Below the pieces are notes generated by a model. It saw only the letters and a program-made list of their open reading frames with translations, searched no databases and had not been told where the DNA came from. The position numbers and the translations under genes were made by a program. From Balneolaceae bacterium (lineage in GTDB: Bacteria; Bacteroidota; Rhodothermia; Balneolales; Balneolaceae), in contig SKYV01000180.1 of NCBI GenBank assembly GCA_007127745.1, positions 1 through 43,605 on the forward strand: 43,605 nt of DNA, read 5' to 3'. Positions 34,724 to 41,103 of this stretch are shown in pieces (positions within the stretch are counted from its first letter, which is position 1; every line of letters begins with the position of its first letter).

Positions 34724-35854
34724 TTAGAATGAAGCCAGGCTTTTTGTCTCTTTGAGTTCACTGAAGAGTGAGTCGTACCGGTCAATCATGCGGCTCCAGT
34801 CCAGTTGCTTGTTGATGTTTTGAAGTGATGCCTTTGGCAGGGGTTTGGTCATTCCGGTCAACAGATCTTTCAGGTTATGGAAAAGATCATCTTCGGTATC
34901 ATAAAGCACGGGTGCATGAAGCAAAGGCTTATGCAGATTTTCCGGTATCAGTTCCGGATAATGCAAGCGGTTGGGCACAAGAGGGTGGCAGCCGCAGTAG
35001 ATTGCTTCCATAATGGCTACACAGAAAAACTCATGCGTTGCCGTCGAAACCACAATATCCCCGGAATGTAGCAGCCGGCTGTAATTTTCCACATTCTCCA
35101 CATAACCGAAATGGGTAATCTGATCACCAAATCGCTTCCAGGCTCGTTCAAACTCTTCCGGTTTTCTATGCTGTGTATCACCAGCCAAAATCAGATCAAA
35201 TTCCAGATCAATGTCATTCAACCGGTTCAATACTTTAAAAAACATGGAAGGATTGCGGTCAAACTGCCATCGCTGATTCCAGACGATCACCGGTCGCTGG
35301 TTTTGCTGCCTTGTATCGGGATGCTGATCAAATACCGACAAATTCAGCCCCGGGTACATCACCATACTTTTTTCCCGGATTTGATCAACCGTGGAATAAT
35401 TTTCATCATCCGTAAAATGATCCAGAAAATCCGGCAGTGCCTCCAGCAAATCGTTCAGATGAAATTTTGTGGTGAACAGGAGTTTATCAGCCGCAAGCAT
35501 ACTCACATAATTGATGTAGCAATACGTTAAATCACGTTTTTCTCCTTCCGGCATGGGTTGTGTTAGCTGATTTTCGTGCATCATCATCACCTTTGGGGTG
35601 TGGGCAAACCGGGGGTTGGTCAGAGCCAAAAAAGCGGGCAGATTGGTCATACTGCTCACCAGCAACAGGTCGATATTCTCCTGAACGTGGCTCGACATCT
35701 TTGCCAGCTTCACAGAATCGCCGTGCATGCGCCATTTCCAGCGTTTGTAATCCAGTTTTATCGGTAAAATGTTGTGTGATGAGTTCTCCTGAAGGCCTTT
35801 TAAAAACGCCTTGTGGGATCCGCTGTAAAAAGGTTCTACGGCAAGTATATTCAC
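34724..35854 (-). CDS. tRNA-queuosine alpha-mannosyltransferase-like protein (DUF3524)
   Basis: A GT4-type glycosyltransferase of 376 residues. The N-terminus ILAVEPFYSGSHKAFLKGLQ with RWKWRMHGDS is the DUF3524 signature shared with human GTDC1, now known as QTMAN, which mannosylates queuosine in tRNA-Asp. MMMHENQLTQP, WNQRWQFDRNP, HFGYVENVENYSRLL and STATHEFFCVAIMEAIYCGC (donor site) match the vertebrate protein along its length. Bacterial members exist; activity on tRNA is inferred. It converges on dnaB and lies 90 bases downstream of mutL. Confidence 0.85.
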   Translation of the reverse strand: MNILAVEPFYSGSHKAFLKGLQENSSHNILPIKLDYKRWKWRMHGDSVKLAKMSSHVQENIDLLLVSSMTNLPAFLALTNPRFAHTPKVMMMHENQLTQPMPEGEKRDLTYCYINYVSMLAADKLLFTTKFHLNDLLEALPDFLDHFTDDENYSTVDQIREKSMVMYPGLNLSVFDQHPDTRQQNQRPVIVWNQRWQFDRNPSMFFKVLNRLNDIDLEFDLILAGDTQHRKPEEFERAWKRFGDQITHFGYVENVENYSRLLHSGDIVVSTATHEFFCVAIMEAIYCGCHPLVPNRLHYPELIPENLHKPLLHAPVLYDTEDDLFHNLKDLLTGMTKPLPKASLQNINKQLDWSRMIDRYDSLFSELKETKSLASF

Positions 35855-38540: not shown

Positions 38541-39065
38541 ATGAACATCCAAAACGACGAATACGGAGAATTTTACGCAGGATACATTGTCCGCTGCTAC
38601 GAAAGGCCTTTGATGGAACTGCTGGTAACCGGCAGGGAAAATGTCATTTCATTAATAGAGCCTGTTTCGGAGGAAGAATCTTTCTATCGGTACGATACCG
38701 GCAAGTGGTCTGTCAAAGAGGTTTTAGGTCACATGATAGATACAGAGCGCATTTTTAGTTTTCGGGCACTTGCACTGGCAAGGGGTGAAAAACCCGAACT
38801 TCCCGGATATGATCATAACCAATACGTGATTGAGGCTGACTTTAACCGGCATTCGCTGAAAAATCTGGTTCAGCAATACCGGTTAGTCAGAGAGGCAACG
38901 ATGGCACTTTTTTCAAACTTTTCGGAGGAAGAACTGCTGAGAAAAGGCCGAGTCAATCAATCCGGTTTTAGCGTGAGGGGATTGGGTTATGTGATCGCCG
39001 GGCATGAATTGCACCACATCTCCATTTTGAAAGAATATTATTTGCCGGGAATTAATCAATCCTAA
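38541..39065 (+). CDS. DinB/YfiT-like putative metal-dependent protein
   Basis: A 174-residue four-helix bundle of the DinB_2 type. Three metal-binding histidines are visible: one in VLGHMIDTERIFSF (near residue 64) and two in GHELHHISILKEYY near the C-terminus. KWSVKEVLGH is the typical first motif. Members include thiol transferases and hydrolases using bacillithiol or mycothiol, but the substrate here cannot be named. Its end overlaps the end of the convergent glycosyltransferase gene by four bases. Confidence 0.88.
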   Translation: MNIQNDEYGEFYAGYIVRCYERPLMELLVTGRENVISLIEPVSEEESFYRYDTGKWSVKEVLGHMIDTERIFSFRALALARGEKPELPGYDHNQYVIEADFNRHSLKNLVQQYRLVREATMALFSNFSEEELLRKGRVNQSGFSVRGLGYVIAGHELHHISILKEYYLPGINQS

Positions 39066-40093
39066 ACCACCACTCCGGATTTTTTTCCTACAGCAGTTTT
39101 TTTTAGACGACGAGCATATCGCACTATTTTTTGAGTTAACATTCCGGCATCGGCTGCATCATTCAAAGAAATAACCGGAGCGGAACTTAACCAATTGGTG
39201 ATAGCTTCAATGCTGGAATCATCAAGCTGCTTAATTACCTGAATTCCCATTTTTTCTAAAGCCGCCGCATTGCAAAGTTGTTCATATTGATTGCGAATCG
39301 GGATAGTGAGAAGTTTTTTTCCCAAAAACATTGCTTCGGCACAAGTTTCAAAACCGGAACTTGTAACCACTCCTAACCCGGTTTTCAGGCTTTCCAGGAA
39401 CGGAAGGTTACCTACAGGATTAATTACAACATTGTCCTCTTCAAACTTTTCATCGCAGTGGGGAGAAAAAAGATGCCATTGGGTCTGCGGTATTTGGCGG
39501 AAAATACGCATCAACGATTCGTGATGATATGCCGGCAGATAGACGGTAATATGATTGTTTCGGTCTGGTTCAGAATGCCTGACTTCCCTCCGAATAATGG
39601 GCGGCTCGATAAACGTGTCGTATCGCTGAAAGTGAAAACCAATGGAACGGTTACAGGGGGCAAAATTTTTCAATATCTGCTCGGCAAAATGAGATTTTTG
39701 TTTAGGCCGCGGGCTTTTTTTTGATAAAAATGCAGCCTGATGACTCAATGCAAGTGATGGAATTTGTTTATTTAAAGCTGCCCAGGCAGTAACCGGTTCA
39801 TAATCGGAGATAACCAGATTATACTTGTTGAGGTCCAGTGTGTGCACATCCCGCAAAAAAGTAACCGGTTTTAAATTCAGCGCAGTTTTCAAATATGAAA
39901 CACTTCCATTGGCATCGTAAGCCAGGCTTAATCCCCGTTTTTTAGATATTGGTATCCCATCAATGTTCATATTGCAATTATACCCACTGAGAAGAACATC
40001 CACATCGGCCAGTTCTGTTAATATCGGCAAAATTTCCCTTGCCCGGCTGATATGTCCGTGACCGGTTCCCTGTATTCCGTAAAGTATTTTCAT
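39062..40093 (-). CDS. Glycosyltransferase of the MJ1255/VC2487 family
   Basis: A GT28/GT1-like glycosyltransferase of 343 residues. The glycine-rich N-terminus YGIQGTGHGHISRAREIL (residues 5-22) is the family mark and resembles MurG and galactolipid synthases; the donor-binding region is VTSSGFETCAEAMFLGKKLL followed by QYEQLCNAAALEKMG. No membrane helix is obvious, so it is probably a peripheral membrane enzyme. It lies 57 bases downstream of a PlcP-like phosphoesterase on the same strand. Acceptor unknown; diacylglycerol is an attractive guess. Confidence 0.85.
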   Translation of the reverse strand: MKILYGIQGTGHGHISRAREILPILTELADVDVLLSGYNCNMNIDGIPISKKRGLSLAYDANGSVSYLKTALNLKPVTFLRDVHTLDLNKYNLVISDYEPVTAWAALNKQIPSLALSHQAAFLSKKSPRPKQKSHFAEQILKNFAPCNRSIGFHFQRYDTFIEPPIIRREVRHSEPDRNNHITVYLPAYHHESLMRIFRQIPQTQWHLFSPHCDEKFEEDNVVINPVGNLPFLESLKTGLGVVTSSGFETCAEAMFLGKKLLTIPIRNQYEQLCNAAALEKMGIQVIKQLDDSSIEAITNWLSSAPVISLNDAADAGMLTQKIVRYARRLKKTAVGKKSGVVV

Positions 40094-40150
40094 AGTTTCA
40101 TGTATTACAGTTCGTTATTGCCAGCCTTACAGTCTTTGGTTTATATGATG

Positions 40151-40951
40151 CTAAACAACTCTATTTCTCTTTTTGCTTCTTACATCAATTCGAGGCAGTC
40201 CGATAAAATCTTCTTCTCTGTATTTGAATATTCTCCATTGGTTGCCATTGTATTCCAAAGCAGTCAGATTTTCAACCCAGTCGCCTGAATTCATGTAAAT
40301 CACGGCACCCTTTTCATTTTCATATCCCCGAATTTTGGGTTGATGAATATGCCCGCAAATCACATATTCGTACCCCTGATCAATGGCGAGATCCATGGCT
40401 GTGGTTTCAAAATCTTCGATAAACCGCACAGCTTTTTTAACACTTTCTTTAATCCGTTTTGATAGTGAAATTTTACCCCGACCCATTTTCACCAACAGCC
40501 GGTTGATGGCCCTGTTTAACAAAATGAGGAGTTCGTATCCGTGGCCGCCAAGTTTTGCAATCCATTTACTGTGCTTCATGGTGATATCAAAAATATCGCC
40601 GTGAAAAATCCAAACTTTTTCTCCGTCCAGCTCCAGCACCAGTTTATCACGGATAAAAAGCGGGCCAAGCTGCAAACTGGATACCTTTCGAAGCACTTCA
40701 TCATGATTGCCGGTTAGGTAGTAGATATCGGTGCCGTTGGTCATCATATTCAGAAGGGTTTTGAGTACCATCATGTGCGATTCCGGCCAGTAATATTTCT
40801 TAAAATTCCAGACGTCCACAAAATCTCCATTCAAAATGATTATTTTTGGGTCGATGGAATTCAGATATTGCATCAGCTCGATGGCATGGCATCCAACCGT
40901 TCCGAGATGCACATCAGAAATGACAACAATGTCAAGGGGGCGTTTTTTCAT
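40151..40951 (-). CDS. Calcineurin-like metallophosphoesterase, PlcP/LpxH-like
   Basis: From the ATG at 40949-40951 it has 266 residues; a longer frame to 41032 is rejected because the fold begins MKKRPLDIVVISDVHLG. The metal ligands are D13 and H15, D43 in NGDFVD, N82-H83 in GNHDEVLR, H117 in HGDIFD, and H201/H203 in CGHIH. The segments HLGTVGCHA, WPESHMMVLK, FHGDIFDITMKHSKW and NSGDWVENLTALE recall, from memory, the PlcP phospholipase C of rhizobia more than true LpxH. Databases often label such proteins UDP-2,3-diacylglucosamine diphosphatase. It is likely co-transcribed with the glycosyltransferase. Confidence 0.85.
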   Translation of the reverse strand: MKKRPLDIVVISDVHLGTVGCHAIELMQYLNSIDPKIIILNGDFVDVWNFKKYYWPESHMMVLKTLLNMMTNGTDIYYLTGNHDEVLRKVSSLQLGPLFIRDKLVLELDGEKVWIFHGDIFDITMKHSKWIAKLGGHGYELLILLNRAINRLLVKMGRGKISLSKRIKESVKKAVRFIEDFETTAMDLAIDQGYEYVICGHIHQPKIRGYENEKGAVIYMNSGDWVENLTALEYNGNQWRIFKYREEDFIGLPRIDVRSKKRNRVV

Positions 40952-41103
40952 GTGGGCAGATGATAAATTTTTTATACTTATCAGCAAAAAAACAAAAATC
41001 TTGTTACCGTACAGTGACCGAATTATTATCATTTGATGATCGAATTGTTATGAAATTATTACTTGCAAACGGCTGATAACTAACCTTTTAAAGAAAATAT
41101 GAA

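Follow-up and report, generated by a model that had tools for sequence, protein, structure and literature searches.

Layout and conservation of the plcP locus

The window analysed here, the whole 43,605-nucleotide stretch of contig SKYV01000180.1 from a Balneolaceae genome (3.07 Mb, 94% complete), carries on its minus strand a phosphoesterase gene and a glycosyltransferase gene, both of them open reading frames present where the first-pass annotation had placed the pair. The first gene of the operon encodes a PlcP-type calcineurin-like phosphoesterase of 266 amino acids (40151-40951, ATG at 40951), and the second, transcribed after it, a 343-amino-acid GT-B glycosyltransferase of the PF13528 or MJ1255 type (39062-40093), with an intergenic gap of 57 bp (40094-40150). 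Upstream of plcP, on the same strand, lies a Pho-box-like array (41000-41061) of six T[AC]A[CT] (TMAY) units repeated with an exact 11-bp period. An alternative, longer phosphoesterase start in the open reading frame listing, at 41032, falls within this array; the phosphoesterases of relatives align from the shorter start. The two genes are likely to share a single transcript, since their counterparts in relatives mostly share 4 bp or come close to touching. Judged by the phosphoesterase, the closest named relatives are the Balneolaceae metagenome-assembled genome CSSed162cmB_72 (84%) and Gracilimonas amylolytica (74%).

The pairing of plcP with the glycosyltransferase gene is not due to chance. 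Of 29 relatives from the same family, 28 keep the genes side by side, and in the 29th a contig end cuts the locus. The genes also adjoin in both loci from the same order and in 14 of 16 distant loci from the class; in these distant loci, identity to the window proteins is about 33-41% for PlcP and about 26-34% for the glycosyltransferase. Of 80 Bacteroidota plcP loci, 46 have the glycosyltransferase gene alongside, and the median distance between the two genes is 7 bp. Within the host family, 50 genomes have both genes, 9 have neither and 1 retains a stop-ridden plcP remnant without the glycosyltransferase. Because the two abut, a single deletion can account for the loss of both, so that joint loss demonstrates dispensability more than coupling.

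In the phosphoesterase tree, the plcP genes of Rhodothermales group with those of proteobacteria and the plcP genes of Balneolales with those of Bacteroidia, and both adjoin a PF13528 glycosyltransferase; this separation suggests that assembly or exchange of the pair took place repeatedly. Elsewhere in the window, the product of a minus-strand gene at 34724-35854 has at its N-terminus a tRNA-queuosine alpha-mannosyltransferase domain (PF12038, 163.8 bits); this activity is known chiefly from animals.

The glycosyltransferase and its possible acceptors

The glycosyltransferase matches PF13528 over its full length (144.5 bits, gathering cut-off 25) and also PF04101, its C-terminal region being of the GT28 type. 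The match to TIGR00661, the MJ1255/VC2487 family, is likewise full-length, yet at 156.9 bits it stays below the curated cut-off of 195.9, which by sequence puts the protein close to that family but outside its curated bound. Literature searches returned no characterised PF13528 glycosyltransferase or biochemistry, and nothing on MJ1255. The GT4 domains PF13439, PF13692 and PF00534 do not match the window protein, whereas Agt1, the PlcP partner in proteobacteria, matches GT4 models; the earlier assignment of the neighbour to a family other than Agt is thereby confirmed.

No solved structure matched in a profile search at a threshold of 0.01, and the protein was therefore compared by fold. The structure model (pLDDT 92.5) shows a GT-B fold and comes closest to YojK (Z 24.4), MurG (Z 22.0) and UGT51 (Z 21.1), all of them UDP-sugar enzymes, the last a lipid-acceptor sterol glucosyltransferase, in line with the MurG-like, lipid-type enzyme proposed in the first-pass annotation. 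Inversion to a beta-glycoside is the usual chemistry of families of this type. The model thus supports a UDP-sugar as the probable donor and a beta-glycoside, formed by inversion, as the probable product. The fold is compatible with many acceptors and does not itself give one; the acceptor and sugar proposed below are our inference.

The best-described counterpart of the operon is the PlcP-Agt system of Pseudomonas aeruginosa (PA3219-PA3218), SAR11 and other Alphaproteobacteria, in which a homologous PlcP likewise comes first, a glycosyltransferase lies directly downstream and a Pho box lies upstream, and which makes glycolipid from phospholipid (PMC8528852, PMC4796936). The window differs in having a PF13528 (GT1/GT28-like GT-B) enzyme instead of the GT4 Agt, in a repeat that is TAACA/TCAC-like rather than CTGTCAT, and in belonging to a class without LpxC.

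A second counterpart is found in Flavobacterium johnsoniae, in which the PlcP Fjoh_4577 and the PF04101 glycosyltransferase Fjoh_0541 of the PhoBR locus, with log2 changes of 8.6 and 5.4 on phosphate depletion, have been described as ‘lipid remodelling’ genes induced by phosphate starvation (PMC8115612). Flavobacterium loci were matched to the Fjoh tags by gene order and domains. The PlcP falls in the same clade as that of the window, as judged through related Flavobacterium sequences, and the PhoBR-linked glycosyltransferase of the corresponding Flavobacterium loci is a remote homologue of the window enzyme. Unlike the window, where one operon follows one array, F. johnsoniae keeps its PlcP and glycosyltransferase genes apart, and the glycosyltransferase is from a very divergent branch.

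Among 30 Bacteroidota genomes that carry PlcP, almost all of them picked for having no glycosyltransferase adjoining plcP, 9 encode the window-type glycosyltransferase, which is missing from many PlcP-bearing Flavobacteria. A second PF04101 glycosyltransferase is present instead in 9 of 10 tested genomes of this kind, including relatives of F. johnsoniae; Arenibacter, the tenth, has the window-type enzyme, and the second one was not found there. Where its surroundings were read, this second enzyme is PhoBR-linked, and it is a remote homologue of the window glycosyltransferase (hhalign probability 97.9). Sequence comparison thus distinguishes three very divergent branches of one glycosyltransferase family tied to PlcP or PhoBR. 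The first-pass suggestion of an independent version of lipid remodelling holds for the glycosyltransferase, which has been exchanged; it fails for plcP, which is homologous to proteobacterial PlcP, and remodelling genes of both kinds have a precedent in F. johnsoniae (PMC8115612). PlcP alone does not imply glycolipid: a PlcP-bearing Dokdonia makes aminolipids instead (PMC4796936), and many Flavobacteria lack the window-type glycosyltransferase.

In many Bacteroidia, a GH1 beta-glycosidase gene (PF00232) adjoins the window-type glycosyltransferase gene, even where the latter is far from plcP (loci L083, L084, L085, L087, L089, L091, L093, L094, L105, L122, L126, L132 and L153, and also L169, L170, L172 and L173); the window has none. 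GH1 is possibly a third, glycolipid-processing gene. A literature search on GH1 as a lipid enzyme like plant SFR2 found no bacterial precedent. In one Flavobacterium genome, the glycosyltransferase gene has a TIR-STING (CBASS-type) effector gene in its neighbourhood, a few genes away (L169:668-1633).

Among the alternatives to diacylglycerol glycosylation, the one that survives best keeps the PlcP step and has the glycosyltransferase act on another lipid (a sphingolipid, sulfonolipid or isoprenoid) or add a later sugar, with the two genes co-regulated as separate envelope responses. The permissive fold and the want of a characterised PF13528 homologue leave room for it, as does Gemmobacter, whose plcP adjoins a GT21 of the ceramide glucosyltransferase type, indicating that plcP partners vary. 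Against it, a tight adjacency kept over deep divergence with only one glycosyltransferase fits the coupling of product to substrate, and proteobacterial plcP has a diacylglycerol glycosyltransferase in the same position. We regard this alternative as unlikely, and the transfer of sugar to diacylglycerol as the better reading.

The repeat array and probable phosphate control

The six units of the array begin at 41061, 41050, 41039, 41028, 41017 and 41006. Three matches to a four-unit pattern were found in the window, all inside the array, against an expectation of 0.01, and plcP is the only one of 34 window genes preceded by at least three units at the 11-bp period. The first-pass annotation had seen no Pho box here, a statement that these six tandem units overturn. 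Outside the array, the whole genome has the four-unit pattern at one other place, C42:26641-26677, between dnaA and the neighbouring gene. This repeat is likely to have arisen by chance, as no phosphate gene is found there and a reversed control pattern also gave one occurrence; otherwise it would be the site of another regulator.

The period also emerges without reference to a motif. Within the family, autocorrelation of the regions upstream of plcP reaches z=11.1 at lag 22; at lag 11 it reaches z=6.6 in distant members of the class and z=7.4 in Bacteroidota, with |z|<3 at other lags. Of 58 Bacteroidota plcP genes, 20 have at least three units ahead of them; for control genes the figure is 15 of 628 (p=1.6e-14, an optimistic value given that the sequences are related).

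Direct repeats of about 11 bp are in wide use across OmpR/PhoB-family regulators. The Pho box consists of 11-nt direct repeats (PMC4415409), in cyanobacteria CTTAACCT with 3-bp linkers in three or more tandem copies (PMC1906773), and the array resembles this cyanobacterial form. The same array precedes a TonB receptor gene divergent from phoB in five Flavobacterium genomes; the F. johnsoniae counterpart of this receptor, Fjoh_0545, has a log2 change of 8.0 on phosphate depletion (PMC8115612). The porin Fjoh_0542 was not induced in that study, though its relatives carry the array. The PhoBR-locus glycosyltransferases are preceded by one or two units only, none by three or more. From these sequences, a Pho-type regulatory site is predicted upstream of plcP.

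It could still be that the operon carries out real lipid turnover while the array serves another member of the OmpR/PhoB family whose trigger is not phosphate. The spacing is general to that regulator class, and the array is absent upstream of the pst operons of two relatives that have pst. The likeness to the cyanobacterial Pho box and the position of the array before phoB-linked, phosphate-responsive receptor genes in Flavobacterium speak against such a trigger, and we give this possibility little weight. Induction of the operon by phosphate starvation is the most likely reading, by analogy with the published induction of the F. johnsoniae counterparts and from the array in cis. Nine of 12 Balneolaceae genomes, the host's among them, lack PstS (PF12849), and high-affinity phosphate uptake in these must work otherwise.

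The phosphoesterase, the lipid A pathway and probable lipid remodelling

The phosphoesterase belongs to the Pfam families PF00149/PF12850. Automatic annotation would have it as the LpxH of the host (UDP-2,3-diacylglucosamine hydrolase), next to a lipid A/LPS glycosyltransferase: its best curated (NCBIfam) matches are LpxH models, the solved structures nearest to it in sequence and fold are LpxH, and it is the only LpxH-like gene found in the host genome. With LpxH it shares a calcineurin-like fold with a helical insertion, and its model is closest to LpxH-lipid X structures, a fold that would suit a diacyl-lipid phosphoesterase. Yet the LpxH matches are weak, with scores far below the cut-offs (47.3 bits against 190.35 for TIGR01854, 60.5 bits against 134 for PRK05340), and identity to LpxH-like paralogues is about 25% or less. 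Identity to the P. aeruginosa PlcP is 42.5%; that protein adjoins agt1 and cyaB, an adenylate cyclase gene, which is the arrangement of PA3219, whose mutants prove diacylglycerol supply for glycolipids (PMC8528852).

The two-metal calcineurin motifs DxH, GNHD and GHIH are present, as is the PlcP signature, here GDWVENLTAL, and the phosphoesterase and the PlcPs have GNHD, CGHIH and GDW[VI]E[NS]xTAL in common; Escherichia coli LpxH has GNRD in place of GNHD. In a maximum-likelihood tree, the PlcPs of the window, Bacteroidia, Rhodothermales and proteobacteria fall together, with LpxH-like proteins outside (support 90/81, the LpxH branches being long). A homologue on pSymB of Sinorhizobium was not equated with the published chromosomal PlcP of that genus. 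Parabacteroides has a plcP-glycosyltransferase pair plus a separate LpxH-like gene. Sequence thus assigns the phosphoesterase to the PlcP type rather than LpxH, as the first-pass annotation had read it, and homology suggests that it hydrolyses phospholipid to diacylglycerol.

LpxC is absent from the host genome, as from every one of the 146 genomes sampled in the class (host included), whereas four control genomes were positive. An LpxH function therefore has no pathway to serve, and, going by these genomes, lipid A synthesis seems to be missing from a whole Gram-negative class; a literature search for a report of missing LpxC in the class, or of LPS-free Rhodothermia, gave nothing usable. Nor was a true LpxH elsewhere, or an LpxI, found in the host genome, a possibility raised in the first-pass annotation, and at least nine genomes of the same family have lost the phosphoesterase gene itself. 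Identity with LpxH is accordingly rejected as very improbable, nearly excluded by the missing LpxC and further opposed by the cut-offs and the tree.

We consider it probable that the operon carries out phosphate-controlled remodelling of phospholipid into glycolipid with a non-Agt glycosyltransferase; remodelling, the role first proposed for the pair, is thus also the likely one here. When phosphate is scarce, a response regulator, presumably of the PhoB type, would bind the array and turn on plcP and the glycosyltransferase gene. PlcP, by homology a two-metal calcineurin-like enzyme at the inner membrane, would cut phospholipid between the diacylglycerol and the phosphate headgroup, and the glycosyltransferase, an inverting GT-B enzyme using a UDP-sugar, would convert the diacylglycerol into mono-glycosyl diacylglycerol, the sugar probably being beta-glucosyl or beta-galactosyl. 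Phosphate would thereby be spared.

The general idea is already in print for Bacteroidetes, through the induced genes of F. johnsoniae (PMC8115612); here a non-Agt glycosyltransferase stands in one operon with plcP. With the balance only slightly in favour, we further propose that PF13528 (MJ1255-type) enzymes may be a second, unrecognised family of diacylglycerol glycosyltransferases, dedicated to phosphate-starvation remodelling throughout Bacteroidota and Rhodothermia. They would take the place of Agt next to PlcP and be controlled by a Pho box of TTAACA-type 11-bp repeats, in a lineage without lipid A that may use glycolipid as a major membrane lipid. PlcP remodelling is known mainly with the GT4 Agt in Proteobacteria, and here another glycosyltransferase family fills that position over a phylum-level group. 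If correct, the proposal would put a name to the glycolipid enzyme so far missing in many Bacteroidota, supply a Pho-box consensus for these bacteria and set right a widespread labelling of PlcP as LpxH where the organism has no lipid A pathway.
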